Below, piece by piece: positions 20,891-36,024 of a stretch of DNA of 47,640 nt (within the stretch, counting starts at the first letter, position 1; the number at the start of each line of letters is the position of its first letter). The position numbers were made by a program, and so were the translations under genes. Location of the stretch: NCBI GenBank assembly GCA_026414995.1, contig JAOAHY010000007.1, positions 1 to 47,640 of the forward strand, written 5' to 3'. Source of the DNA: Caldisericia bacterium (lineage in GTDB: Bacteria; Caldisericota; Caldisericia; B22-G15). The notes below the pieces were generated by a model, which did not search any database, was not told where the DNA came from, and saw nothing but the letters and a program-made list of their open reading frames with translations.

Positions 20891-22816
20891 TTATATCAAG
20901 TTAGATAAAATAAAATTTAATAATCCACCAATTAGAATTGCAAATATAATTTGGAAAATTGTTATCAAAAGGGAAAACAATAAACCTATTTCTTTTTTCA
21001 AACTTGCAAATGTTGCTATACATGGAAAATAAAATAGTGTAATTATAGAATATATTATTATTTGTTTAAAATTCATAATTGATAAAATATCTTCTGTTCC
21101 AAAAAGAGAAAAAAGCATTAAAAGAGTTAATTCTTTTCTTAAAATTCCAAATATTAGTGGAACTGCTGTTAATGAAGGTAAACCTAAAAATTTATTAAAA
21201 AATGGAGAGACTATTATAACAAAAGAATCTAGATAATTAGACAAACTAAGAATTTGCATAATAAAACTTCCTAAAATTATTATAGGAAAGGCAAAATAAA
21301 TAAAATCTCTTATTCTAAACCAAGATTGTCTAAATATAATTTTCATTGATGGTTTTCTTAAAGGTGGCATCTCCATTATAAGACCATAACTTTTACCAGG
21401 TACAATAATTGATAATATTTTTCCTATTAAAAAAATAACTATTATGTCAATTAAATAAATTATTAAAACATATTTAAATCCTAAAAAAATTCCAACAAGA
21501 CCAAGTATTACAATTGTTCTAGCGCTACAAGGAACAAGAGTTGCTAGAGTTGCAGTTATAAATTTTTGTTTTTTTGTTTCAAGAATCCTTGAACCAAGAA
21601 CTGCTGGAACATTACATCCAAAACCAAGTATTAAAGGAAAAAAGGCTTTTCCATGAAGACCGATAAGATGCATAAATGTATCTGTTAAAAAAGCAACTCT
21701 TGCTAAATATCCTGAATCTTCAAGAAAAGATAAAAGAATATAAAAAGGTATAAGATATGGTAAAGCAATAGACAATCCCCCAATTACTCCATCAAATATT
21801 CCATCAATTAAAAGTTTTTTTGTTAATGAAGAAATTTTTAAACTTAAAATAGCTTCTTTTATTTTTTCAAAAATAGAATCAAGTAATCCACCAAAAATTC
21901 TTCCAAAACCAAAAATTAAGTAAAAAATTAAAAATAGAAAGGTAATTAAAAAGATGTATCCTAAAATTGGATGTAAAAAAATTTTATCTAAATAGAATGA
22001 TAATGGAAATTTTCTTTCTCTTTTATGCAAAACCTCTTTTGTAATTTTATTACAGATATTATATTTTTCTTGAGTTAAAATAAGAGATATCTCTTCTCCA
22101 TGAATATCTTCAAGTTCATTAACAAATTTATTCACAATTTCAAGAATTCTTGAATCTTTAAATTTATTAATAATTTCCTCATCTTTTTCTAATAACTTTA
22201 TTGCAACCCATCTTTTGGGATATAGAAAATCTTTGGGTAAAATTTCCATCAATTTTTTTATTCTTTCTTCAACCTCTTTTCCATAACTAATTTCAATTGG
22301 TTTGACTTTAATATTCTTTTCATATATCTCAATGCATTTTTCAATTAATCTATCAATACCTTTATTTTCTACTGCAACTGTTGGAATAACAGGAACTCCT
22401 AAAATCTCTTCCAATTTTTTTATATCTATTGAAAAGCCACTTTCTTCAAGTAAATCAATTTGGTTTAATGAAATTAATAAATTAACATTTAACTCAATAA
22501 GTTGAAGAGTAAAAAATAAATTTCTTTCAAGATGAACTGCATCAACAACATTTATAACTATATCTGGTTTTTCCTCTAATATAAAATTTCTTGTTATTAA
22601 CTCTTCTTCAGAATATGCAGAGAATGAATATATTCCTGGTAAATCTATTACTCTTATTTTATAGCCCTTATAAATTAGATATCCCTCTTTTCTTTCAATA
22701 GTTTTACCAGGCCAATTACCTATTATTTGATGTGATCCAGTTAATTCATTAAAAATTACGCTTTTTCCTACATTAGCATTTCCAGCAAGAGCAATTGTTA
22801 GTTCTTTTTCACCCAT
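20891..22816 (-). CDS. feoB: Ferrous iron transporter FeoB
   Basis: 641 aa. N-terminal G-domain: GNANVGKS (G1, 11-18), IGNWPGKTIERKEG (G2), DLPGIYSFS (G3), NQID (G4); then a GDI-like helical segment, and a membrane part with two Gate domains and FeoB_C (helices from about 280 to the end). SARTIVILGLVG and GFGCNVPAVLGSR are the conserved Gate/Cys motifs. It moves Fe2+ into the cell, driven or gated by GTP. Translation overlaps the upstream DtxR-FeoA gene by 19 bases. No free-standing feoA was found here; the regulator carries the FeoA-like domain. Iron would serve the hydrogenase and Fe-S proteins encoded divergently. Confidence 0.96.
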   Translation of the reverse strand: MGEKELTIALAGNANVGKSVIFNELTGSHQIIGNWPGKTIERKEGYLIYKGYKIRVIDLPGIYSFSAYSEEELITRNFILEEKPDIVINVVDAVHLERNLFFTLQLIELNVNLLISLNQIDLLEESGFSIDIKKLEEILGVPVIPTVAVENKGIDRLIEKCIEIYEKNIKVKPIEISYGKEVEERIKKLMEILPKDFLYPKRWVAIKLLEKDEEIINKFKDSRILEIVNKFVNELEDIHGEEISLILTQEKYNICNKITKEVLHKRERKFPLSFYLDKIFLHPILGYIFLITFLFLIFYLIFGFGRIFGGLLDSIFEKIKEAILSLKISSLTKKLLIDGIFDGVIGGLSIALPYLIPFYILLSFLEDSGYLARVAFLTDTFMHLIGLHGKAFFPLILGFGCNVPAVLGSRILETKKQKFITATLATLVPCSARTIVILGLVGIFLGFKYVLIIYLIDIIVIFLIGKILSIIVPGKSYGLIMEMPPLRKPSMKIIFRQSWFRIRDFIYFAFPIIILGSFIMQILSLSNYLDSFVIIVSPFFNKFLGLPSLTAVPLIFGILRKELTLLMLFSLFGTEDILSIMNFKQIIIYSIITLFYFPCIATFASLKKEIGLLFSLLITIFQIIFAILIGGLLNFILSNLI

Positions 22817-23340
22817 ATTCTATTTACAACTCCTTTTCCAAGAGCAAGGTTATAACCTCTTACAGATATTTCAATTGGACCAAATAGTGCTTTTCTTATA
22901 ACTTTTATTTTTGTATGAGGAGTAAGACCTAAATCACACAATCTTTGAATAAACCCTTTTCCACCTCTTATTATTATAACTTCAACCTCTTCTCCTTCTT
23001 TTATTAAAGACAGTGGTATTAAATTTTTGTATTCATCTTCTTTAACATAGTGTTCTAATTCACATGCTTTTTCATGAGCGAAACCTTCAGGAACACCAAT
23101 ATTTTTTAAAAAATCTTCAACAAATTCATGTTTATTTTTTATACTTTCACCTTCAATTGAGCCCTCTTTAGTTAATAATATAAAACCATCTTTTAAAATA
23201 ATCTTTTTTTCTAAAATTAAAGAATTAATAATATCTTCAATATTTAATGAACTAAATTCTTTTTTTAGTTCAGCTAAAGAAATCTTTTCTTCTTTTTTTC
23301 TAAATAAAAATTCTAAAATCTCTTCTTTAATCTCTTCCAT
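22798..23340 (-). CDS. DtxR-like metal regulator with C-terminal FeoA domain
   Basis: 180 aa. N-terminal winged helix (about 1-60: IKEEILEFLFRKKEEKISLAELKKEF...LTKEG), a DtxR-type dimerisation/metal-binding part (HEFVEDFLKNIGVPEGFAHEKACELEHYV, with His, Glu, Cys ligands), then an SH3-like FeoA domain (about 105-178: IIRGGKGFIQRLCDLGLTPHTKIKVIRKALFGPIEISVRGYNLALGKGVVNRIWV). DtxR repressors bind DNA with Fe2+ or Mn2+. It is the first gene of the feoB-ZIP operon, so it probably both senses iron and supplies the FeoA function. It lacks the longer linker of some DtxR proteins. Divergent from hypF. Confidence 0.86.
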   Translation of the reverse strand: MEEIKEEILEFLFRKKEEKISLAELKKEFSSLNIEDIINSLILEKKIILKDGFILLTKEGSIEGESIKNKHEFVEDFLKNIGVPEGFAHEKACELEHYVKEDEYKNLIPLSLIKEGEEVEVIIIRGGKGFIQRLCDLGLTPHTKIKVIRKALFGPIEISVRGYNLALGKGVVNRIWVKKN

Positions 23341-23415: not shown

Positions 23416-25659
23416 ATGAAAACTTATTTTTTTAAGATATATGGAAGAGTACAAGGAGTAGGGTTTAGACCTTTTATTTATAAACTTGCAAAAGAATTTG
23501 GATTAAATGGATATGTTGCAAATACATCTAGTTGTGTTGAAATAGTTTTGCAAGGTGAGAATATAAAAATAAAAAATTTTATTGAAAAGGTTAAAAAAGA
23601 TCCACCTCCTCTTTCAAAAATTGAAAAAATAGAAGAGAATCTAATAGAATTAGAAGAGTTTAAAGATTTTTTTATAAAAGAGAGTAAAGAAGATAAAGGT
23701 TTTAATTTTATTTCTCCTGATATTGCAATATGTGAAGATTGTCTTAAAGAACTTTTTAATCCAAATGATAGAAGATACATGTACCCATTTATTAATTGTA
23801 CAAATTGTGGCCCGAGATATACAATAATTGAAGATTTACCATATGATAGAGAAAAAACAACAATGAAAATTTTTAAAATGTGCGTTGATTGCGAAAAAGA
23901 GTATAAAGATCCTAATACAAGAAGATTCCATGCACAACCTAATGCTTGTTTTAATTGTGGACCTCATATTTGGATTGAGAATATAGAAGAAAAAAAGATT
24001 ATAAAAGAAAATATTTTTAAAGAAATTTCAAATATATTAAATAGTGGGGAATTAATTTTAATTAAAGGGGTTGGAGGTTTTCATATTGCTTGTGATGCAA
24101 CTAACGATTTAGCAGTAAAAAAATTAAGAGAAAAAAAGAAAAGACCAATAAAACCATTTGCATTAATGATGAAAGATATTGAGACAATTAAAAAATATTG
24201 TTTTGTTTCATATTTTGAAGAAGAGATTTTAAAATCTAAAGAAAGACCAATAATTTTGTTAAAAATTAAAGATCTTTTAGATATTTCGCCTAATGTTGCA
24301 CCGCAAAATAATTATCTTGGATTAATGCTTCCTTATGCTCCTTATCACTATTTACTTTTTGAAGAGTTCAACAAACCTCTTATAATGACAAGTGGTAATT
24401 TATCAGATGAACCAATTGTAAAAGATAATGATGAAGCAAAAGAAAAACTTAAAATCATTTCAAAGTTTTTTGTTTTTCATAATAGAGAAATAGAAAGAAG
24501 AATTGATGATAGTGTTATTTTTGTTGAAAGAGGAGAATTTCAATTTATTAGGAGAGCAAGAGGTTATGCACCAGACCCAATAAAGGTTAATATTAATTTG
24601 AAACCCACTCTTTCTCTTGGAGGAGAATTAAAAAATACATTCTCTCTTGGATATAAAAATTATGTTTTTATGAGTCCTCATATTGGTGATTTAAAAGATA
24701 AAGAAACTCTTGAAATATACGAAGAAACAATTTTTGAATTTATTAAACTTTTTAAAATTAATCCAGAAATTTTAGTTTGTGATCTTCACCCACAGTATCT
24801 TTCAACAGAATTTGGAGAGAAATTCAAAAATATTCTTGAAATAAAATATATCCAACATCATAAAGCACATGCATTAAGTTTGATTCTTGATAGAGAGATC
24901 AATGAAAAGACAATTATATTTTCTTTTGATGGAACAGGATATGGTGAAGATGGAAAAATTTGGGGTGGAGAAGTTTTTGTAGGAGATATTAATGAAATTA
25001 AGAGAGTTGCACATTTCAAATATTTTCCAATTACAAAAAGTGATTATTCAATTGAAAATCCAAAAAGAATTCTTTTTGTATACCTTTCTAAATTTTTGAA
25101 TGAGTATTCAGAAAAATTTTTATATAAATATAGTGAATTTGAAGTTGAATTGATTAAAAAAATGATAGAGAAAAATGAAAATCTTATAGAAACATCATCT
25201 TTAGGAAGAATTTTTGATATGGTTTCAAGTTTACTTGATATAAAAGATAAGGTTAGTTATGAAGGAGAGGCAGCAATTTCTCTTGAAATGTTATCATCAA
25301 AAAGTGAAACAAAAGATTTTTATAGTTATCAATTAATTGATGGAAATGAAATTGAAGTTGACTTTTTAAAAGTTATTCAAGGAATTATAGAAGATAAAGA
25401 AAGGTATACAAAAGATTACATAGGAAAAAAATTTCATAATACAATTGCAAAAATTATTTTTGATATCTCAAATATTTTTAAAGAAAAAGAACACATTAAT
25501 AATATTGGATTTAGTGGTGGCGTATTTCAAAACCGCCTTTTGATAAACTTAATATATGAGTTATTTGAAAAAAGTGATTTTAAACTATATTTTCATAGAA
25601 GAGTTCCAACAAATGATGGAGGAATATCATTAGGACAAATTATTTTAGGAAAGGAGTAA
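23416..25659 (+). CDS. hypF: Carbamoyltransferase HypF ([NiFe]-hydrogenase CN ligand synthesis)
   Basis: 747 aa, full length. Domains: acylphosphatase (1-90, RVQGVGFRPFIYKLA), two zinc fingers (CEDC...CTNCGPRYTI, CVDC...CFNCGPH, about 108-180), YrdC-like domain (about 195-370, LREKKKRPIKPFALM), Kae1-like carbamoyltransferase (about 385-740, IQHHKAHALSLI, DGTGYGEDGKIWGGE, GFSGGVFQNRLL). HypF makes carbamoyl-AMP from carbamoyl phosphate and passes the group to the C-terminal Cys of HypE. First gene of the hyp run; hypC follows after nine bases. It likely has little or no 5' leader. Confidence 0.97.
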   Translation: MKTYFFKIYGRVQGVGFRPFIYKLAKEFGLNGYVANTSSCVEIVLQGENIKIKNFIEKVKKDPPPLSKIEKIEENLIELEEFKDFFIKESKEDKGFNFISPDIAICEDCLKELFNPNDRRYMYPFINCTNCGPRYTIIEDLPYDREKTTMKIFKMCVDCEKEYKDPNTRRFHAQPNACFNCGPHIWIENIEEKKIIKENIFKEISNILNSGELILIKGVGGFHIACDATNDLAVKKLREKKKRPIKPFALMMKDIETIKKYCFVSYFEEEILKSKERPIILLKIKDLLDISPNVAPQNNYLGLMLPYAPYHYLLFEEFNKPLIMTSGNLSDEPIVKDNDEAKEKLKIISKFFVFHNREIERRIDDSVIFVERGEFQFIRRARGYAPDPIKVNINLKPTLSLGGELKNTFSLGYKNYVFMSPHIGDLKDKETLEIYEETIFEFIKLFKINPEILVCDLHPQYLSTEFGEKFKNILEIKYIQHHKAHALSLILDREINEKTIIFSFDGTGYGEDGKIWGGEVFVGDINEIKRVAHFKYFPITKSDYSIENPKRILFVYLSKFLNEYSEKFLYKYSEFEVELIKKMIEKNENLIETSSLGRIFDMVSSLLDIKDKVSYEGEAAISLEMLSSKSETKDFYSYQLIDGNEIEVDFLKVIQGIIEDKERYTKDYIGKKFHNTIAKIIFDISNIFKEKEHINNIGFSGGVFQNRLLINLIYELFEKSDFKLYFHRRVPTNDGGISLGQIILGKE

Positions 25660-25668
25660 ATTTTAAGA

Positions 25669-25893
25669 ATGTGTCTTGGAGTTCCTTTAAAGGTAATAAA
25701 AATTCTAAATCAAGATAAAGCAATTGTCTCAATGGGTGAATCATTTCTTGAAATAAATACGGTTTTTACACCAGAGATAAAAGAAGGAGATTATGTTATA
25801 GTACACGCTGGTTTTTCAATTTCAATACTTTCAAATGAAGATACAGAAGAGATAAATTCTCTTTTAAATGAATTAAAAAATGGAAAAGAATAA
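25669..25893 (+). CDS. hypC: Hydrogenase maturation chaperone HypC
   Basis: 74 aa. It starts MCLGVPLKV, the family signature in which Cys2 binds the Fe(CN)2CO unit; the initiator Met is expected to be removed. A GGAAAGGAG site lies upstream. The rest is an OB-like beta barrel (IVSMGESFLEINTVFTPEIKEGDYVIVHAGFSISIL), typical length. It works with HypD. hypD starts inside its last 14 bases. Confidence 0.97.
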   Translation: MCLGVPLKVIKILNQDKAIVSMGESFLEINTVFTPEIKEGDYVIVHAGFSISILSNEDTEEINSLLNELKNGKE

Positions 25894-26950
25894 AAAAGAA
25901 ATTATCTTAAAAATCTCAAATTTAATTAAAAAAATCTCAAAAAAGGAAATTAATATAATGGAATTTTGCGGAACACATACTCATGAAATTATGAAAAATG
26001 GCTTAAAACAACTCTTGCCAGAAAATATTAATCTTCTCTCAGGACCAGGATGTCCTGTATGTGTTACATCTCAAGAAGATATTGATTATATAATAAAAGT
26101 TTCTCTTGAAGAAAATTTTCAAATTATTACTTTTGGAGATCTTGTAAATGTTAAGGGCAGTGAAATGAGTTTAAATGATTTAAGAATTATGGGAAGAGAA
26201 GTTCATATTGTTTATAATCCTTTTGAAGCTATTAATATTTCAATGGAAAATAAAGAAAAAAATTATATTTTGATTGGTATTGGTTTTGAAACAACTGCTC
26301 CAAATTTAGGATATACAATCATAAAATCTAAAGAATTAGGAATAAAAAATTTATTTTATTATTCTTTAAATAAATTAACTCCACCAGCAATGAAAGCTAT
26401 ATTAAAAATGGGAGAGGTTAAATTGAATGGAATAATTGGACCAGGTCATGTTTCAACAATTATTGGTAAAAAAGGTTGGATGGATGTTTTTCAAGAATAC
26501 AAAATTCCTTTTGTTATTTCTGGTTTTGAACCAATTGATATTATTTATGGAATATATCTTCTTGTTAATATGATTGAAAAGGGTGATGCAGATGTTTTAA
26601 ATGCTTATAAAAGAAGTGTAAAAGAAGAGGGAAATAAAACCGCAAAAGAAATTTTAAATAAAGTTTTTAAAGTAGAAAATGCAAATTGGAGAGGCTTAGG
26701 TATTCTTGAAAAAAGTGGTTTGTATCTAAAAGATGAATTTGAAAATTTTGAAATAAGAAATTACTTTAAATATGAGATTAAAAGTAAAAAAGTTTTAGGT
26801 TGCAGGTGTGATGAAGTTATTAGAGGAGTCATAAAACCAAATGAATGTTCATTATTTAAAAAGGTATGTAATCCACAAAATCCAGTAGGACCATGTATGG
26901 TTTCAAGTGAAGGTGCGTGTTCTGCATATTTTTTATATGGAGATAACTAA
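25880..26950 (+). CDS. hypD: Hydrogenase maturation Fe-S protein HypD
   Basis: 356 aa, normal length. MEFCGTHTHEI with the family Cys, the LSGPGCPVCVTSQEDID block (Cys-x-x-Cys), IGIGFETTAPN, GPGHVSTIIG, SGFEPIDII, and the C-terminal 4Fe-4S motif GCRCDEVIRGVIKPNECSLF..C..P.GPCMVSSEGACSAY are all present. HypD, in complex with HypC, builds the Fe(CN)2CO group of the active site. ATG start overlaps hypC (translational coupling). Confidence 0.97.
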   Translation: MEKNKKEIILKISNLIKKISKKEINIMEFCGTHTHEIMKNGLKQLLPENINLLSGPGCPVCVTSQEDIDYIIKVSLEENFQIITFGDLVNVKGSEMSLNDLRIMGREVHIVYNPFEAINISMENKEKNYILIGIGFETTAPNLGYTIIKSKELGIKNLFYYSLNKLTPPAMKAILKMGEVKLNGIIGPGHVSTIIGKKGWMDVFQEYKIPFVISGFEPIDIIYGIYLLVNMIEKGDADVLNAYKRSVKEEGNKTAKEILNKVFKVENANWRGLGILEKSGLYLKDEFENFEIRNYFKYEIKSKKVLGCRCDEVIRGVIKPNECSLFKKVCNPQNPVGPCMVSSEGACSAYFLYGDN

Positions 26951-26953
26951 ACT

Positions 26954-27952
26954 ATGAGTGAAAAAATCTCTATTTTTCATGGAAGTGGTGGAGAGGGTAC
27001 AAAAAAATTGATTGATAAAATTTTAAAGGAACTAAACAATGAAATTCTTTCAGAATTATTAGATTCAGCAATTTTAAATTTAAAAGACAAATTAGCATTT
27101 ACAACAGACTCTTATGTTATTTCACCTCCATTTTTCAAAGGAGGAGATATTGGAAAACTTGCTATATTCGGAACTGTAAATGATTTATCAGTTGTTGGAG
27201 CAGAACCCCTATTTTTTAGTTTAAGTTTTATAATTGAAGAAGGTTTTGAATTAGAAGAGTTTGAAAAAATTATTAAATCAATAAAAGAAGCAAGCGAGAT
27301 AACTAAAGTTAAAATTGTTACTGGTGATACAAAGGTAGTTGAAAAAGGTAAGGGGGATAAAATTTTTATTAATACTTCAGGAATTGGAATTATAAAAAAC
27401 AAAAGAGATTTAAAGGAAAGAAAAATAGAAAAAGGAGATCTTATATTAATAAATGGTGGAATTGGAGAACATGGGCTTGCAATTATGCTTGAAAGGCTTG
27501 GTGTTAAAACAGGAGATGAAGTTAAATCTGATCTAGCACCACTAAATTCTTTAGTATTACCTTTACTTGATAATTTTACAGAAATAAAATTTATGAGAGA
27601 CCCAACTAGAGGAGGAGTTGCGACAGTTTTAAATGAAATAACTAAAAAATATAAATTTGATATTGAAATTTGGGAAGATTCTTTGCCAATAAAAAATTGG
27701 GTAAAGGAAGCATCAAATATCCTTGGTATTGATCCTCTTTATTCAGCAAATGAAGGAAAAGTTATTATGGTTGTTGATAAAAATAAAGGTGAAGAAATTC
27801 TTAAATTTATAAAAAAACATCCTCTTGGAAAAGAAGCAAATATAATAGGTGAGATTAAGGAAGAAGGAGAAAGGGTTTATCTTAAAACAGAAATTGGAAC
27901 AAAAAGAATTTTAGATACATTAAAGAGAGATTTACTCCCAAGAATCTGTTAA
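26954..27952 (+). CDS. hypE: Hydrogenase maturation protein HypE
   Basis: 332 aa, AIR-synthase-like fold. IFHGSGGEGTKKLIDK near the N-terminus, TDSYVISPPFFKGGDIGKLAIFGTVNDLSVVGAEP, MRDPTRGGVATVLNEI, and the C-terminal LLPRIC with Cys332 as the last residue, the acceptor of the carbamoyl group that is dehydrated to thiocyanate by ATP. All catalytic blocks intact. Three bases after hypD. The next gene (hypA) has its own promoter. Confidence 0.97.
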   Translation: MSEKISIFHGSGGEGTKKLIDKILKELNNEILSELLDSAILNLKDKLAFTTDSYVISPPFFKGGDIGKLAIFGTVNDLSVVGAEPLFFSLSFIIEEGFELEEFEKIIKSIKEASEITKVKIVTGDTKVVEKGKGDKIFINTSGIGIIKNKRDLKERKIEKGDLILINGGIGEHGLAIMLERLGVKTGDEVKSDLAPLNSLVLPLLDNFTEIKFMRDPTRGGVATVLNEITKKYKFDIEIWEDSLPIKNWVKEASNILGIDPLYSANEGKVIMVVDKNKGEEILKFIKKHPLGKEANIIGEIKEEGERVYLKTEIGTKRILDTLKRDLLPRIC

Positions 27953-27967
27953 ATAATAAACAATATA

Positions 27968-27996
27968 TTGATTTTTTCTTTTAAAATAAGTATAAT
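27968..27996 (+). promoter_or_regulatory. Promoter of hypA and the hydrogenase structural genes
   Basis: TTGATT (27968-27973), 17 bases, TATAAT (27991-27996): one of the best promoter matches in the window. It lies in the 58-base gap after hypE. The ATG of hypA is 14 bases after the -10, with no Shine-Dalgarno between, so the leader would be about seven bases. Confidence 0.65.
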
Positions 27997-28010
27997 TTTA
28001 AATATATATT

Positions 28011-28409
28011 ATGCATGAATGGGCCTTAGCAGAAGCAGTTGTTGAATCATCTTTAAGATTATCAAAAGAAAAAAATATTGAAAAAGTGAATGAAATTTAC
28101 ATTAAAGTTGGTGAACTTCAAAATATTGATATTGAAGTATTTGATTATGCATTTAAAGAGTTGATTAAAGATACACTTCTAAAGAATTCAAAAATAATTT
28201 ATGAAACTCAAGAGGCTATTTTAAAATGTAACAATTGCAGAAATGAATGGAAATTTATGGAAAGCTTTAAAAACTTAAGCGAAGATGAAAAAGAAGCAAT
28301 ACACTTTATACCAGAAACACTTCATATTTACATAAAATGTCCGAAATGTGGAAGCATTGATTTTGAAATTATAAATGGAAGAGGAGTTTTTTTAGAGGAT
28401 ATAAAGTGA
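28011..28409 (+). CDS. hypA: Nickel metallochaperone HypA (archaeal-style)
   Basis: 132 aa, longer than the usual bacterial HypA (about 113-118). It starts MHEWALAEAVV: His2 and Glu3 are the nickel ligands, and the MHEWAL form is what I recall from Thermococcales. The zinc site is Cys-x-x-Cys twice (KCNNC and KCPKCGS), with a longer insertion between them (ESFKNLSEDEKEAIHFIPETLHIYI) as in archaeal versions. HypA delivers nickel to the large subunit. It overlaps the next gene (a MinD-type ATPase) by four bases, the same HypA/ATPase pairing seen in those archaea. Confidence 0.93.
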   Translation: MHEWALAEAVVESSLRLSKEKNIEKVNEIYIKVGELQNIDIEVFDYAFKELIKDTLLKNSKIIYETQEAILKCNNCRNEWKFMESFKNLSEDEKEAIHFIPETLHIYIKCPKCGSIDFEIINGRGVFLEDIK

Positions 28410-29146
28410 GTATCGATCCTAGAGTCTCATATATAGAAAAAAAATTAGATAGAATAAAAAGAATTTGGGCTGTATCTAGTGGAAAAGGTGGTGTTGGTAA
28501 AAGTACAATTGCATCAATTCTTTCTCTAATTTTAAAAGAAAAAGGGTTTAAAGTTGGTTTGCTTGACCTTGATATATATGGTCCATCAACTCATGTTGTT
28601 TTAGGAGTAAAAAATTTTGAATTAATTGAAGAAAATGGAGTTCTTCCTCAAGATATAAATGGTTTAAAATATATATCAATCTTATCATTTACAAGGAATA
28701 AACCTTTATCTTTAAGAGGAAATGAACTAACTGATATTTTTCTCGAACTTTTTACAATTACAAATTGGGGAGAATTAGACTTTTTAATAATTGATATGCC
28801 ACCAGGCATTGGAGATACAACTCTTGATTTATTAAAATTTATTAAAAAATGTGAATATTTAATAATTTCAAACAGCTCAAGAATTTCCTTTGAAACAGTT
28901 ATTAAACTTTTTGAAATATTAAAACTTTCAAATGCAAAAATTTTAGGTTTAATTGAGAACATGAAATTTTCTTCAGACGAATTCATATTAAAGGAGTGCG
29001 AAAAAAGAAATATAAATTATATCGGTAGTATAAATTTTTATTTTGATTTAGATTATTTATACGGTAATATTAATGCTATAATTAATTCTGATTTATCTTT
29101 GTTTTTATATAAGATTTTAGAAAGGATTTTAGATCAAAACTTTTAA
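28406..29146 (+). CDS. MinD/Mrp-type ATPase in the place of HypB
   Basis: 246 aa, GTG start overlapping the hypA stop (GTGA), with AGAGGAT upstream. Deviant Walker A KGGVGKST at 27-34 (SSGKGGVGKS), LLDLDIYGPS, and IDMPPGIGDTT (switch II) are the Mrp/MinD signature. The GTPase HypB, with its own G motifs and His-rich tail, is not encoded here. In Thermococcus kodakarensis, an ATPase of this fold (HypB-AT) binds HypA and drives nickel uptake (known from structural work). Position and coupling suggest the same role. The CxxC that Fe-S-carrier Mrp proteins have near the C-terminus is absent (ENMKFSSDEF...), so Fe-S carriage is unlikely. Confidence 0.85.
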   Translation: MSIDPRVSYIEKKLDRIKRIWAVSSGKGGVGKSTIASILSLILKEKGFKVGLLDLDIYGPSTHVVLGVKNFELIEENGVLPQDINGLKYISILSFTRNKPLSLRGNELTDIFLELFTITNWGELDFLIIDMPPGIGDTTLDLLKFIKKCEYLIISNSSRISFETVIKLFEILKLSNAKILGLIENMKFSSDEFILKECEKRNINYIGSINFYFDLDYLYGNINAIINSDLSLFLYKILERILDQNF

Positions 29147-29161
29147 AGAGAGAGGGTGATT

Positions 29162-30838
29162 ATGGAGAAGATTAAGATTAAAATTAATGGAAACGAGATT
29201 GAAGTAGATCAAGGAAAAACTATCCTTCAAGTTGCTAAAGAGTTAAATTTACATATTCCAACATTATGTTATCTTGAACCACTTTCACCACAAGGTGCAT
29301 GCAGATTATGCATAGTTGAAGATAGAGGTAAACTTGTTGCATCCTGTAATACTCCTATTGCTCCTAATATGGATATAAAACTTGATACTCCAGATGTTAT
29401 TAGTTCAAGAAAATTATTGCTTCAACTACTTTTTACTGAAAGAAACCACTATTGTATGTATTGTGAGGTATCGGGAAACTGTGAACTACAAAACATGGGT
29501 TATGAATTTGGTTTAGATCACTTTGAATTTCCAACTTATGAAAAAAGATTTGAAGTTGATAATTCACATGACTACATAATTATGGATCCAAATAGATGTA
29601 TTTTGTGTAGAAGATGTGTTAAAGCATGCTCTGAACTCGCTGGACATTTTGTATTAGGTGAAATGAATAGAGGAATTGAAACTTTAATTATTGCTGACAT
29701 GAATCTACCTCTTGGAGAATCAAGTTGTACCTCATGCGGATTATGTACTCAAGTTTGTCCAACCGGAGCATTAATTGATAAAAGAAGTGTTTATCTTGGA
29801 AAAGATGTACAAACAGATATTATTTACTCAAATTGTAATGAATGTGCAGTTGGATGTGGTACAAAAATTTATAAAAAGAAAAATTCAAATTTTATAGTAA
29901 AAATTTATGGAGATATGAATTCAGAGATTAATGGTGGAGTTTTATGTAAAATTGGAAGATACTCTGCCTTGTTTGAAGAGAAACCAAGAGTTATTTCTTC
30001 AAAATTTAAAGAAGAAGCAAACTTTAAAAAATTAGATAGAGAAAGACTAATTAAACTTATTTCTGAGAAAATTAATGAACTTATTGTTTATATTGATGGA
30101 ACTCTTTTTAATGAAGAGATTGAATTAATAAAAAATGTTTTTAAAGATAAAGTTTACTCTCTATATACAAATGAACCTCAAATTCCATCAAGTATAACAC
30201 TAAAAGATTTAAATAATGAAAAAGAATTTATTGTTATAGGTGTTGATTTAAACAGAGAATATGGAGTTGTTGGTTCTTTTGTTAAAAGAAAAGTTTTAGG
30301 AGGAGAAGGAAAACTTGCTGTTTTTGATTCAGATTTTAACTCTCTTGCACAAATTTCTCACTATACATTTAATATAAATCAACTTAAAGAGGGACTTGAG
30401 GAATTAAAAGATTTTAAATCTCCAGTTGTAATTTATAAAGAAATCCCAAAAGAGGCAGCTGAGATTCTTAAGAGTAAAGACAATTACAAATTCTTATGGC
30501 TTCCTCCAGAAACAAATTCTATTGGTTTAAATAAATTTGGTATTAAAAATGAAATTAAAAATTCAAAGGTAGTTATATTCTTTGGAGAAAATATTGATGG
30601 TCTCAAGAATTTTAATAAAGATACTTATATTATTGCATTTACTCCATATGAAACAGAAGAACTTTTAAAAAGAGCTGATGTTATTGTTGGAATATCTAAT
30701 GGGTTTGAAAGAGAGGGTACTTTTTATAATATTGATGGTAAAGTTGTTAAAAAAGAAAAAGTTTTAAATCCAAAATTTGAAACTCTTGACCTTAAAAATT
30801 TTTTAAATGAATTTAATAGAGTATCATCAATTAAATGA
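29162..30838 (+). CDS. NuoG/HoxU-like multi-cluster Fe-S subunit of the hydrogenase
   Basis: 558 aa from the ATG at 29162 (SD GAGGGTG); the GTG two codons up is less likely. Clusters in order: 2Fe-2S (Cys36, 47, 50, 62); His-Cys3 (His96, Cys98, 101, 107); two 4Fe-4S ferredoxin motifs (Cys146, 149, 152, 156 and Cys189, 192, 195, 199); a molybdopterin-type Fe4S4 domain (Cys225, 228, 232 and 262). The rest, about 290 residues, is a NuoG-like domain much shorter than a molybdenum enzyme, and no Mo site is expected. It would carry electrons between the hydrogenase small subunit and an acceptor. HoxU proteins usually end after the ferredoxin part, so this is longer. No NuoE/NuoF gene is nearby. Confidence 0.9.
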   Translation: MEKIKIKINGNEIEVDQGKTILQVAKELNLHIPTLCYLEPLSPQGACRLCIVEDRGKLVASCNTPIAPNMDIKLDTPDVISSRKLLLQLLFTERNHYCMYCEVSGNCELQNMGYEFGLDHFEFPTYEKRFEVDNSHDYIIMDPNRCILCRRCVKACSELAGHFVLGEMNRGIETLIIADMNLPLGESSCTSCGLCTQVCPTGALIDKRSVYLGKDVQTDIIYSNCNECAVGCGTKIYKKKNSNFIVKIYGDMNSEINGGVLCKIGRYSALFEEKPRVISSKFKEEANFKKLDRERLIKLISEKINELIVYIDGTLFNEEIELIKNVFKDKVYSLYTNEPQIPSSITLKDLNNEKEFIVIGVDLNREYGVVGSFVKRKVLGGEGKLAVFDSDFNSLAQISHYTFNINQLKEGLEELKDFKSPVVIYKEIPKEAAEILKSKDNYKFLWLPPETNSIGLNKFGIKNEIKNSKVVIFFGENIDGLKNFNKDTYIIAFTPYETEELLKRADVIVGISNGFEREGTFYNIDGKVVKKEKVLNPKFETLDLKNFLNEFNRVSSIK

Positions 30839-30847
30839 GGTGAAAGG

Positions 30848-31390
30848 ATGAAAAAAATAAAAGTTGCATCAATTTGGTGTGAAGGTTGCTCTGGTTGTCA
30901 TATGTCTTTTCTTGATATGGATGAAAGATTAGTAGAATTGATAAATAAAGGTTTAGAGATAAATGCAACTCCAATAACAGACCTTAAAGTTCCAGACGAT
31001 GATACAGATATAGGAATAATTGAAGGTGCAGTTGCAACAGACCATCATGAAGAAGAAGTCAAAATGATGAGAGAAAAATGTAAATTTATAGTTGCGATTG
31101 GTGATTGTGCAGTTTTTGGTGGAATTGTTACTATGAGAAATTATTTCTCTGTCGATGAATTATTAAAAAGAGGATATATAGAAACAGAAACTACTGTTGA
31201 TGGAAAAATTCCAACATCACCTGAACTTGGAAAACACCTTCCAAAAGTAAAGGCAGTAAATGAAGTTATTAAAGTTGATTATTATATTCCAGGTTGTCCT
31301 CCATCTGCAGATTCAATTTATCATGTATTAAAAGAAATTTTAGAAGGTAAAACACCTGTTTTAACAGGTGAACTCTTAAAATATGAGTAA
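30848..31390 (+). CDS. hoxY: [NiFe]-hydrogenase small subunit (HoxY-like)
   Basis: 180 aa, typical of cytoplasmic group 3 enzymes and lacking a Tat signal. Cys11 and Cys14 (WCEGCSGCH), Cys87 (IGDCAVFGG) and Cys150 (PGCPPSAD) bind the single proximal 4Fe-4S cluster; medial and distal clusters are missing, as in HoxY. Passes electrons to the NuoG/HoxU-like subunit encoded just upstream. A GAGGTG SD precedes the ATG. A palindrome in its last codons is listed separately. hoxH follows after 11 bases. Confidence 0.94.
   Translation: MKKIKVASIWCEGCSGCHMSFLDMDERLVELINKGLEINATPITDLKVPDDDTDIGIIEGAVATDHHEEEVKMMREKCKFIVAIGDCAVFGGIVTMRNYFSVDELLKRGYIETETTVDGKIPTSPELGKHLPKVKAVNEVIKVDYYIPGCPPSADSIYHVLKEILEGKTPVLTGELLKYE
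31353..31370 (+). repeat. 18-base palindrome near the end of hoxY
   Basis: CACCTGTT TT AACAGGTG, eight pairs around a two-base centre, 18 bases before the hoxY stop codon and 33 bases before the hoxH ATG. It lies inside coding sequence (TPVLTGEL), so it may simply reflect codon choice. Confidence 0.5.
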
Positions 31391-31401
31391 TGAGGTGAAA
31401 G

Positions 31402-32826
31402 ATGAATAAAAAAATAACAATAAATCCTGTTACAAGAATTGAAGGACATGCAAGAGTAACAATATTTTTAGATGATGATGGAAAAGTAGATGAAGCATAT
31501 CTTCATATAGATCAGTTTAGAGGTTTTGAAAAGTTTTCTGAAGGGCGTTACTTTGCTGAAATGCCAATTATTACCCCAAGAATTTGTGGAATTTGTCCTG
31601 TAAGTCACCACCTTGCAGCAGCTAAAGCAACAGATGAAATTTTAGGAGTTGAAATTCCAAAATCTGCAAAACTTCTAAGAGAATTAATTCATATGGGTCA
31701 AGTTATTCAATCACATTCAATGCACTTTTTTGAACTTGCAGGTCCAGATCTAATTTTAGGTTGGGATGCTGATCCAAGAATAAGAAATGTTGTTGGATTA
31801 ATACAAACAAACCCAGAACTTGCTCTTAAAGCAGTAAAACTAAGAAAATTTGGGCAAAGGATAATTGAACTTGTTGCTGGAAGAAGAATTCATCCTACAT
31901 TTGCAATTCCAGGAGGGGTAAATCAAGCACTTTCTGAAGAAGCAAGAAATGAAATTCTTTCAGGAATAGATGAAATGATATCTTACATTCAAGAAGGAAT
32001 AAAAATTGCACTCGATTTTATTGAGAAAAATAAAGAATTATGTGATAAATTTGCTTCATTTCAAAGTGGTTATATGGGACTTGTTAAAAATGATGGTTCT
32101 CTTGAACTTTATGATGGAAAGATAAGGTTTATGGATAAAAATGGAAAAGTTGTTAATGAGTTTGAAGATAAAGATTACATAAAATACATTGGAGAAAAGG
32201 TTGAAGATTGGAGTTATCTTAAATTTCCATACTATAAACCATTTGGATATCCTGATGGAGTTTATAGAGTTGGGCCACTTGCAAGATTAAATGCATCAGA
32301 TAAAATTTCAACACCTCTTGCTAATGAAGAGTTTAAGAAATTTAAGGAAATGGGTAATGGAAAACCAATTGAAGGTTCAATTTATTATCATTATGCAAGA
32401 CTAATTGAAACAATTTATGCATTAGAGAGAGCAAAAGAAATTCTTGAGGATCCAGAGGTTGTGTCAAAAGATACATTTATTCCAGGAAAACCAACAAATA
32501 AAGAAGGTATTGGAGTAATAGAAGCACCTCGTGGAACTTTAATTCACCACTATTGGGTCAATGAAAAAGGTACAATTGAAAAAGCAAATCTAATTGTTGC
32601 AACAGGGCACAACAATTGGGCAATGAGCAAAGCAGTTGAACTTGTTGCAAAAGGTTTTGTTGATGGAAAAAATCTTAAAGAAGGTATGTTAAATAGAGTA
32701 GAAGGCGCGATAAGATGTTATGATCCATGTCTTTCATGTTCGACCCATGCAATAGGGAAGATGCCAATTGTTATTGAACTATATGATAAAAAGGGAAACT
32801 TAATTAATTTTGTCAAAAGAGACTAA
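31402..32826 (+). CDS. hoxH: [NiFe]-hydrogenase large subunit (HoxH-like)
   Basis: 474 aa. L1 motif RICGICPVSHH (Cys62, Cys65) and L2 motif DPCLSCSTH (Cys443, Cys446, His449) supply the four Cys ligands of the NiFe centre. Residues 450-474 (AIGKMPIV...) are the C-terminal tail cut off after nickel insertion by the protease encoded next. The N-terminus NPVTRIEGHARVTIF is classical. L1 and L2 are complete, so it should be active. Group 3 (bidirectional, cytoplasmic) is suggested by the short small subunit and the NuoG-like partner. The reaction is H2 to 2H+ + 2e-, in either direction. SD GAGGTG before the ATG. Confidence 0.96.
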   Translation: MNKKITINPVTRIEGHARVTIFLDDDGKVDEAYLHIDQFRGFEKFSEGRYFAEMPIITPRICGICPVSHHLAAAKATDEILGVEIPKSAKLLRELIHMGQVIQSHSMHFFELAGPDLILGWDADPRIRNVVGLIQTNPELALKAVKLRKFGQRIIELVAGRRIHPTFAIPGGVNQALSEEARNEILSGIDEMISYIQEGIKIALDFIEKNKELCDKFASFQSGYMGLVKNDGSLELYDGKIRFMDKNGKVVNEFEDKDYIKYIGEKVEDWSYLKFPYYKPFGYPDGVYRVGPLARLNASDKISTPLANEEFKKFKEMGNGKPIEGSIYYHYARLIETIYALERAKEILEDPEVVSKDTFIPGKPTNKEGIGVIEAPRGTLIHHYWVNEKGTIEKANLIVATGHNNWAMSKAVELVAKGFVDGKNLKEGMLNRVEGAIRCYDPCLSCSTHAIGKMPIVIELYDKKGNLINFVKRD

Positions 32827-33223
32827 AAAGGTAATTTTAGTTGGTTTTGGTAATGAATATAGAAGAGATGATGGATTAGGCATAAAGCTCCTGGACCTTA
32901 TAGAAGATGAGAAAGTTAAGAAGATTAAGGTTCAGGAGCTTTCTTATTCTTTGATTGATGATATAAAAGATTATGATATTGTAATTTTTATTGATGCAAG
33001 TATTGAGGGGAAGGATGTAAATTTAAAAAAAATTGAAAAAACTCAAAAATTTTCACCTTTAACACATCACTTACCACCAGAAGAACTATTAATATGGGCA
33101 GAATTTATTAATAAAAAACATTATGATTTTTATTTGCTTTCAATAAGGGGTTATGATTTCGATTTTGGAGAAGAGATATCAGAAGAGGGAAAGAAAAATT
33201 TAGAAAAAAGTTTAGGTTTTTAA
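32810..33223 (+). CDS. Hydrogenase maturation protease (HycI/HoxW-type)
   Basis: 137 aa, TTG start inside the end of hoxH (17-base overlap). GFGNEYRRDDGLGIKL is the family nucleotide-fold signature, with Glu (GNE) and Asp (IFIDAS) as the nickel-sensing residues; LTHHLPPEELL matches the third conserved block with its His. It removes the C-terminal tail of the large subunit after nickel is inserted. The gene carries a striking inverted repeat (32884-32942) near its start. Last gene of the hydrogenase run. Confidence 0.93.
   Translation: MSKETKKVILVGFGNEYRRDDGLGIKLLDLIEDEKVKKIKVQELSYSLIDDIKDYDIVIFIDASIEGKDVNLKKIEKTQKFSPLTHHLPPEELLIWAEFINKKHYDFYLLSIRGYDFDFGEEISEEGKKNLEKSLGF
32884..32942 (+). repeat. 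Long inverted repeat (17-bp stem) inside the protease gene
   Basis: AAAGCTCCTGGACCTTA (32884-32900) and TAAGGTTCAGGAGCTTT (32926-32942) pair over all 17 positions in RNA, with one G-U wobble; the loop is 25 bases. The stem is GC-richer than anything around it in this AT-rich sequence. It lies about 75 bases after the start codon. Both arms are coding, within the protease. Confidence 0.85.
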
Positions 33224-33627: not shown

Positions 33628-33663
33628 TTGATTAAAATTTATTGAGTAATTTTGGAGGATGTG

Positions 33664-36024
33664 ATGATTGACAAATTAAATGATTATTTTAAGGCATGTT
33701 GTTATATTGCATGTGGGATGATTTATCTTCAAGATAATCCTCTTCTTAGAGAACCGTTAAAAAAAGAACATATTAAAAATAGACTACTTGGACATTGGGG
33801 AGCAAGTCCTGGTTTAAGTTTTGTTTATGTTCATTCAAATAGAGTTATTAACAAATATGATATTAATGCTATTTTTATTGCTGGTCCAGGTCATGGTGCC
33901 CCAGGTGTAATTGCACCAGTTTATCTTGAAGGAACTCTGAGTGAAATTTACTCAGAATTTAGTCAGGATGAAATTGGATTAAAAAATTTATTTAAAGCGT
34001 TTTCTTTTCCTGGAGGTTTTGGAAGTCACTGTACTCCAGAACTTCCTGGTTCAATTCAAGAAGGTGGAGAACTTGGATATTCTTTATCTCATGCCTATGG
34101 AGCAGTTTTTGACAATAAAGATTTAATTGCAATAACTGTAATAGGCGATGGAGAAGCAGAAACAGGACCACTCTCTACATCTTGGCACTCAAACAAATTT
34201 TTAAACCCAATTACAGATGGAATGGTTCTTCCAGTTTTACTATTGAATGGTTATAAAATAAACAATCCAACAGTTTTATCAAGAATTGAAAATGAAGAAC
34301 TTTTATCACTTTTCAAAGGTTATGGATATGAACCTATTTTGGTAGAAGGGGATGATGGTCTTGAAGTTCATGAAAAAATGGTTAAAGCATTTGATTATTC
34401 AATTGAAAAAATATTTTCAATTTGGGATTTAACAAGAAAGAGTGGTACACCAAAAAGATATCTTTATCCAATGATAATCTTAAGAACACCAAAAGGTTGG
34501 ACTGCTCCAAAAAAATACAAAGATCATTTCATTGAAGGTTATTGGAGAGCACATCAAGTTCCATTTTCAGATGTAAAAGAAAACCCTGAAAGCCTAAAAG
34601 CTCTTGAAGAATGGCTTTTAAGTTATGAACCAAATAAACTTTTTGATGAAAATGGCTCATTAAGAAAAGATTTAAAAGAGCTTTCTCCAAAAGGAAGTAA
34701 AAGAATGAGTTCAAATCCTGTAACAAATTGTGGATTAATAAGAAAAAGTTTAATTCTTCCAGATGTAGAAAATTTTAAAGTTGAAATAAACCAAAGAATT
34801 AAAGATAGTTTTGAAAATACAAAACCCCTTGGTAATTTTTTGAAAGAAGTAATTAAATTAAATAGAAATAATTTTAGAGTTTTTGGACCAGATGAAACAA
34901 AATCAAATAGATTAGATGCAACATTTGAATATGGAAAAGCTTGGATGGCGAAAATATTGCCAGAAGATTCAGATGAAGGATATCTTTCTCCATATGGAAG
35001 AGTTATGGAATATCTTTCTGAACATACAATTGAAGGTTGGCTTGAAGGGTATCTACTAACAGGAAGACATGGTTTTTTAAATACTTATGAAGGTTTTTCT
35101 CAAATTATTTCTTCAATGGTAAATCAGTTTGGAAAGTGGATTGATATTTCAACTGATGTTTCATGGAGAGCTCCAATTTCTTCATTAAATCTTCTTTTAA
35201 CATCTGTTGTATGGAGACAAGATCACAATGGTTTTACCCATCAAGATCCAGGATTTATAAATTCAATTGTGGATAAATGGCCTAATGTAGTAAGAGTATA
35301 TTTTCCTCCTGATGCAAATACTCTTCTTTGGGTAGTTTGGCACGCTCTTCAAACAACTGATAGAATTAATATAATTGTTATTGATAAACAAAAACATCCT
35401 CAATATCTTACAATTGATGAGGCAAAAAAGCATGCAACAAAAGGAATTGGAATATGGGATTTTATCTCAACATATCCAAATGAAGAGCCAGATGTTGTAA
35501 TTGCAAGTTGTGGTGATATTCCAACAAAAGAAGCAATTTTTGCAGTAAATATTTTAAAAGAAAATTTCAAAGATTTAAAAATAAGATTTATAAATGTTTT
35601 AAATCTTTTTACATTAACTCAGAATACAGAGCATCCAGACGGATTAACTGACAAAGAATTTGACTTATATTTTACAAAAGATAAACCAATTATTTTTAAC
35701 TTTCATGGTTATCCTTGGCTGATTCATAGATTAACTTATAGAAGAACAAATCATAAAAATCTTCATGTTAGAGGATATAGAGAAAATAGAAAAATTGGTA
35801 TTGACTCATCATATCTTGTATCGTTTTTAAAAGGAAGAGGTGGAATTACAACTCCACTTCAACTTGCAATTTTAAATCAAATAGATAGGTTTAGTATAGC
35901 AATTGATGTAATTGAAAGAGTTGAAAAATTAAGTGAAAAAGGTGCAAATTTAAAAGATAAACTAAAAGATATGCAGATTGAAGCTCTTGATTATGCTTAT
36001 AAAAATGGAATAGATAAAGAGTAA
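33664..36024 (+). CDS. xfp: Phosphoketolase (xylulose-5-P / fructose-6-P)
   Basis: 786 aa from the ATG at 33664, with GGAGG five bases up; the TTG at 33652 contains the SD and is rejected. TPP-dependent phosphoketolase, XFP family, usual length. Seen: HWGASPGLSF near the N-terminus, GPGHGAPG, FSFPGGFGSHCTPELPGSIQEGGELGYSLSHAYGA, VIGDGEAETGPLSTSWHSNKF (TPP-Mg site), LLTGRHGFLNTYEGFS, WRQDHNGFTHQDPGF and RGRGGITTPLQL. It splits xylulose-5-P (or fructose-6-P) with phosphate into acetyl-P plus glyceraldehyde-3-P (or erythrose-4-P). It suggests sugar breakdown to acetate, with acetyl-P giving ATP. It follows the hydrogenase genes but appears to have its own promoter. Confidence 0.96.
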   Translation: MIDKLNDYFKACCYIACGMIYLQDNPLLREPLKKEHIKNRLLGHWGASPGLSFVYVHSNRVINKYDINAIFIAGPGHGAPGVIAPVYLEGTLSEIYSEFSQDEIGLKNLFKAFSFPGGFGSHCTPELPGSIQEGGELGYSLSHAYGAVFDNKDLIAITVIGDGEAETGPLSTSWHSNKFLNPITDGMVLPVLLLNGYKINNPTVLSRIENEELLSLFKGYGYEPILVEGDDGLEVHEKMVKAFDYSIEKIFSIWDLTRKSGTPKRYLYPMIILRTPKGWTAPKKYKDHFIEGYWRAHQVPFSDVKENPESLKALEEWLLSYEPNKLFDENGSLRKDLKELSPKGSKRMSSNPVTNCGLIRKSLILPDVENFKVEINQRIKDSFENTKPLGNFLKEVIKLNRNNFRVFGPDETKSNRLDATFEYGKAWMAKILPEDSDEGYLSPYGRVMEYLSEHTIEGWLEGYLLTGRHGFLNTYEGFSQIISSMVNQFGKWIDISTDVSWRAPISSLNLLLTSVVWRQDHNGFTHQDPGFINSIVDKWPNVVRVYFPPDANTLLWVVWHALQTTDRINIIVIDKQKHPQYLTIDEAKKHATKGIGIWDFISTYPNEEPDVVIASCGDIPTKEAIFAVNILKENFKDLKIRFINVLNLFTLTQNTEHPDGLTDKEFDLYFTKDKPIIFNFHGYPWLIHRLTYRRTNHKNLHVRGYRENRKIGIDSSYLVSFLKGRGGITTPLQLAILNQIDRFSIAIDVIERVEKLSEKGANLKDKLKDMQIEALDYAYKNGIDKE

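Follow-up and report, generated by a model that had tools for sequence, protein, structure and literature searches.

An ATPase-type HypB and its long-type HypA partner in the hydrogenase operon of a Caldisericia bacterium, and their distribution among bacteria and archaea

The window analysed here, a 47,640-nucleotide stretch of a Caldisericia bacterium genome (assembly GCA_026414995.1, contig JAOAHY010000007.1), carries the hydrogenase maturation genes hypF, hypC, hypD, hypE and hypA without the GTPase HypB, and downstream of hypA encodes a MinD/Mrp-like ATPase. We have found that this ATPase is a bacterial ortholog of the ATPase-type HypB (HypB-AT, or mmHypB) of the archaeon Thermococcus kodakarensis, and that the HypA beside it is the long-type partner of HypB-AT. 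By analogy with the archaeal proteins, this ATP-driven pair probably loads nickel into the hydrogenase, replacing the GTP-driven HypB. The pair belongs to a known family, of which it is a bacterial representative, and does not amount to a new kind of system; the value of the finding lies in how widely, among uncultured bacteria and archaea, and how exclusively the ATP type replaces the GTP type. The reviews consulted describe HypB-AT only for T. kodakarensis; its presence in about 12 bacterial phyla among the best 80 of 365 loci, with a matched HypA type and near-exclusion of the GTPase HypB, points to a general alternative for nickel insertion. Bacterial members, including that of the named strain Pelotomaculum propionicicum MGP, make the ATP cycle approachable outside the hyperthermophilic archaea, and bear on the choice between ATP and GTP for one and the same step.

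Operon context and identity of the ATPase

The hyp and hydrogenase genes at 23416-33223 of the window form one tight operon on the + strand, with intergenic distances of -17 to 11 bases except for 58 bases before hypA. The operon starts with hypF (23416..25659), which encodes the carbamoyltransferase of CN ligand synthesis (NCBIfam TIGR00143, 802.6 bits, cut-off 466), followed by hypC (25669..25893), a 74-aa ORF between hypF and hypD that starts with MCLGVP and for which tblastn finds counterparts in the same position of related operons, hypD (25880..26950; TIGR00075, 428 bits, cut-off 192.8) and hypE (26954..27952; TIGR02124, 422.5 bits, cut-off 251.6), the product of which ends in PRIC. The gene order F-C-D-E-A without HypB given in the initial annotation was thus recovered, as was the four-base overlap (GTGA) between hypA (28011..28409) and the gene of the KGGVGKST ATPase (28406..29146), which has a GTG start and encodes 246 aa. 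Further downstream are genes for a HydA/NuoG/HoxU-like iron-sulfur subunit of hydrogenase (29156..30838; best PDB match 7t2r_A, 2.4e-70, residues 3-306), the [NiFe] hydrogenase small subunit (30848..31390; PF01058, with partners in related operons), the large subunit (31402..32826; PF00374; 7t2r_D, 1e-185) and a hydrogenase maturation endopeptidase (32810..33223; TIGR00072, 56.7 bits, cut-off 47.45). The nearest PDB entry for the hydrogenase subunits (29156-32826) is 7t2r, a NiFe hydrogenase whose subunits run from A to L. As read from its translation, the large subunit contains the nickel-site motifs RICGIC and, near its C-terminus, DPCLSCSTH, followed by a C-terminal tail, and the endopeptidase gene adjoins it; this subunit is the probable nickel acceptor of the HypA-HypB-AT pair. 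No HydB/NuoF-type flavoprotein partner was found in the genome: a candidate from the PF01512 (Complex1_51K) search, the sole protein of this family there, was rejected because it resembles RnfC. By eye, the operon is flanked by a divergent minus-strand pair encoding a FeoB-like transporter and an N-terminally extended FeoA-like protein (20891-23340), and is followed by a phosphoketolase-like ORF of 790 aa (33652-36024).

When the PDB was searched with the ATPase sequence, the best matches were 3vx3 and 5aun, both HypB-AT, at 8e-65, and the next was Mrp at 1.7e-29; with a profile built from 37 orthologs the values were 7.6e-100 for HypB-AT versus 1.7e-44. An AlphaFold2 model of the ATPase (pLDDT 90) led to the same protein, since its first 12 PDB matches were all T. 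kodakarensis ATPase-type HypB (TM 0.83-0.91), including the HypAB-Ni complex, with Cfd1, ApbC and Mrp coming only after those; the TM score was about 0.91 against 5auo, 5aun and 3vx3, and about 0.8 against Mrp. In a tree, 73 HypB-AT sequences were split from 10 Mrp sequences with 100/100 support, and the window ATPase falls on the HypB-AT side. The proposal that the ATPase is a Thermococcales-like HypB-AT is borne out by PDB, fold and tree evidence alike, and the grouping with Mrp that would have refuted it did not appear. The MinD-type catalytic motifs are intact, namely the deviant Walker A SGKGGVGKS, the Walker A' DLD and the switch DMPPG.

The T. kodakarensis HypB-AT (PDB 3vx3, 5aun-5auq) was reportedly described by Sasaki et al. 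in 2013 and Watanabe et al. in 2015. The window protein shares with it 45% identity, a fold at TM of about 0.9, the Walker A and switch motifs and an N-terminal DPR motif, and in both organisms the HypB-AT gene adjoins hypA in a genome without the GTPase HypB. On the other hand, the archaeal protein contains a 5-residue insert that is missing from the window protein, whose host is a bacterium and whose gene lies within a full hypFCDE-A-B-hydrogenase operon. The GTPase HypB (TIGR00073) occupies the same slot downstream of hypA and has the same presumed role, but it is a G3E GTPase accompanied by a short HypA (~115 aa, no IHFIPE linker), whereas HypB-AT is a MinD/Mrp ATPase; the window ATPase gives no match to TIGR00073. 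It also scores below the cut-offs of the MinD cell-division models TIGR01968 (34.2 of 212.9 bits) and TIGR01969 (45.3 of 201.75 bits), and among the models searched with it, no Pfam or NCBIfam model carries the HypB-AT name; therefore annotation pipelines probably miss HypB-AT or label it Mrp. When viral contigs were scanned with the HypB-AT alignment, only Mrp/MinD-like proteins turned up; leaving out the weakest, short matches, these are at most about 40% identical over the ATPase core.

The GTPase HypB does not appear elsewhere in the genome either. The TIGR00073 search, which finds HypB at E of about 1e-70 in nine relatives from the phylum, found none in the window, nor anywhere in the 1.27-Mb assembly, the completeness of which is rated at 100%, and above the cut-off of the G3E-type model PF02492 this genome holds only MeaB and Era. 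The whole-genome check suggested in the initial annotation therefore came out in favour of a replaced HypB.

The Mrp/ApbC/NBP35 iron-sulfur carriers share the ATPase fold and the deviant Walker A with HypB-AT, and it is conceivable, although very unlikely, that the window ATPase is a housekeeping or operon-dedicated carrier of the Mrp/ApbC/Ind1 type that loads clusters into the NuoG-like and small hydrogenase subunits. Among the Pfam models, the NUBPL iron-transfer family PF10609 fits it best, and the next gene, 9 bases away, encodes an iron-sulfur subunit. Against this, besides the tree, stand the scores of the Mrp models, which are far under the cut-offs (148 bits where 450 are required, and 109 where 348 are), and the diagnostic residues that set HypB-AT apart from the carriers, such as His63, Asp141 and Ser158 in the window numbering. 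Furthermore, HypB-AT lacks the N-terminal extension and the conserved cysteines of the carriers: no cysteine is conserved in the family, 27 of the 73 members are free of cysteine, and CxxC occurs in one. The partner conserved across phyla is hypA and not the iron-sulfur subunits, and the genome has a housekeeping Mrp of its own, a separate 346-aa protein at 1276-2316 on the minus strand of another contig (G000:C13; L021); a MinD-like protein is likewise encoded separately (G000:C10). The initial annotation had taken the missing CxxC as an argument against a housekeeping Mrp. The motif is indeed absent from the window ATPase, but the argument does not discriminate, because the genome's own Mrp also lacks the CPxC that several phylum relatives keep.

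CooC is likewise a nickel ATPase of the MinD fold, and a CooC-like protein would insert nickel into CO dehydrogenase instead of hydrogenase. We regard this assignment as extremely improbable: CooC needs a CxC metal motif, whereas HypB-AT has no conserved cysteines, the nearest solved proteins are HypB-AT, the operon contains a hydrogenase, and hypD is present in 40 of 45 long-HypA genomes.

Long-type HypA and the predicted nickel cycle

The HypA of the window is the long-type partner of HypB-AT. As noted in the initial annotation, it is long and starts with MHEWAL (MHEWALAEAVV); its 132 aa score 182.2 bits against NF003008 (cut-off 125) and fall below the cut-off of the ordinary model TIGR00100. 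In the PDB it matches only the HypA of T. kodakarensis (3a43, 5.2e-34), which also belongs to NF003008 and to which it is 41% identical over 132 aligned residues. Apart from the bacterial host of the window protein, the two are alike in His2, His98, the four zinc cysteines and the IHFIPE linker. The nickel ligands are the Met1 amine, His2 and His98, and the zinc cysteines are at positions 73, 76, 110 and 113; His2, His98 and all four cysteines are kept by every one of the 82 long HypA sequences aligned, a count to which the scan peptides (MHEWALA and the IHFI stretch) contribute by partly pre-selecting the residues within them, although either pattern alone sufficed. The short HypA of the relatives with the GTPase type lacks the His98 linker.

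For T. kodakarensis, the review PMC7055735 states that HypA raises the activity of the HypB ATPase threefold and that an A2B2 complex of HypA and HypB assembles with ATP; in this complex His98 of HypA, together with its N-terminal amine and His2, binds nickel in a square-planar site with nanomolar affinity. From the orthology and fold, the conserved ligands, the operon, the absence of the GTPase and the phylogenetic co-occurrence, we are highly confident that the window pair is the nickel-insertion module of [NiFe]-hydrogenase maturation, with HypB-AT replacing the GTPase HypB. The cycle probably runs as in T. kodakarensis, the HypA-HypB-AT complex, its ATP cycle and the delivery of nickel being carried over from the archaeal work. 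In such a cycle, ATP-bound HypB-AT dimers would bind two HypA, the binding would bring His98 of HypA beside the Met1-His2 site and so create the nanomolar square-planar nickel site, and ATP hydrolysis would release the nickel-loaded HypA. HypA would then pass the nickel on to the large subunit, which is encoded a little further downstream and would already carry Fe(CN)2CO, after which the endopeptidase of the operon would cut off the C-terminal tail of this subunit.

Distribution within and beyond the phylum

In 54 genomes of the phylum, HypB-AT was found in five: the window's genus contributes all of its four members, and the fifth genome belongs to another family (UBA4770). Each of the five has a long HypA and lacks the GTPase HypB. 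In nine genomes from other families, a short HypA of ~115 aa is encoded together with the GTPase HypB, the gene of which mostly lies directly downstream. The two HypB types occur together in none of these 14 genomes, so the swap of HypB type within the phylum is clean. The hypD gene is present in 13 of the 14. It was not found in G003, whose contig starts inside hypE, so that the expected place of hypD lies off the contig end. Besides the 14, only two genomes of the phylum carry hypD, and both are without HypA or HypB above cut-off.

When 84,980 species genomes were scanned with the long-HypA alignment, 365 relatives were obtained, the best 80 of which were analysed. By the titles of their database records, 33 of these 80 loci are bacterial, from about 12 phyla and including Pelotomaculum propionicicum MGP, and 47 are archaeal, shares that are not unbiased because the scan orders its hits by similarity to the window protein. 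The pair is thus not specifically archaeal, contrary to the initial annotation. HypB-AT lies near the long hypA in 73 of the best 80 loci, in 61 of them at a distance of about 20 bases or less, and the GTPase HypB lies near it in none of the 80; in two more long-HypA genomes HypB-AT is at a contig start. Since the same pair recurs in the same order in these 73 loci, the adjacency of hypA and the ATPase gene is not a matter of chance. A gene set of hypA, HypB-AT, hydA, the small and large subunits and the protease also recurs, joined in the fuller loci by hypF or hypFCDE, and in members of the window's clade the pair shares one operon with hypFCDE and the hydrogenase.

Outside the phylum, the GTPase HypB exceeds the cut-off in only one of 34 long-HypA genomes, although incomplete MAGs could fake some of these absences. 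The sole exception, the L134 genome of an uncultured delta proteobacterium, has HypA and HypB-AT as well as a GTPase HypB (6.8e-81), and may hold two systems or be a mixed MAG. Neither HypB type was detected in three long-HypA genomes (L071, L080 and L118), which may use the long HypA alone or with another partner, or may be incomplete assemblies; the record of L118 is at chromosome level, and some of its bases downstream of hypA are masked.

Origin of the bacterial pair

The window HypB-AT falls in a clade of eight bacterial sequences from Caldisericota, Dictyoglomaceae and a WOR-3 MAG (100/99), and a tree of HypA plus HypB-AT recovers the same eight-member clade apart from all archaea (100/100). 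Bacteria form at least two clusters in the trees, with archaea mixed into one of them and ANME inside a bacterial cluster, and a single bacterial clade is rejected on HypB-AT (p-AU 0.017). The initial annotation had considered the pair probably transferred, a claim for which the topology tests do not decide: placement of the window clade with Thermococcales/DHVE2 (p-AU 0.60) and with other bacteria and ANME (p-AU 0.25) are both allowed. The deep branches and about 12 bacterial phyla among the best 80 of 365 loci, together with the separation of the window's clade from the archaea, are consistent with the pair being an ancient trait of bacteria and archaea and not an archaeal pair moved into bacteria. 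We consider such an origin rather unlikely, given the patchy occurrence in 5 of 54 phylum genomes, the rejected monophyly of the bacterial sequences and the ANME archaea within a bacterial cluster; orthology and function would be unchanged by it.

We lean slightly towards a broader view, in which ATP-type nickel insertion is a second widespread system found in many bacterial and archaeal phyla, exchanged operon-wide, and nearly exclusive with the GTP type because the HypA and HypB types cannot be mixed. A transfer of the operon is plausible, and the HypD phylogeny suggests that in any transfer the whole hyp-hydrogenase operon moved and not the pair alone. An insertion of the pair alone into a resident GTPase-type hyp operon is unlikely, because the window HypD clusters in an eight-member clade of HypB-AT bacteria (100/100) apart from the GTPase-type members of its own phylum; from this clade and the recurring gene set from hypA to the protease, the whole operon appears to travel together.
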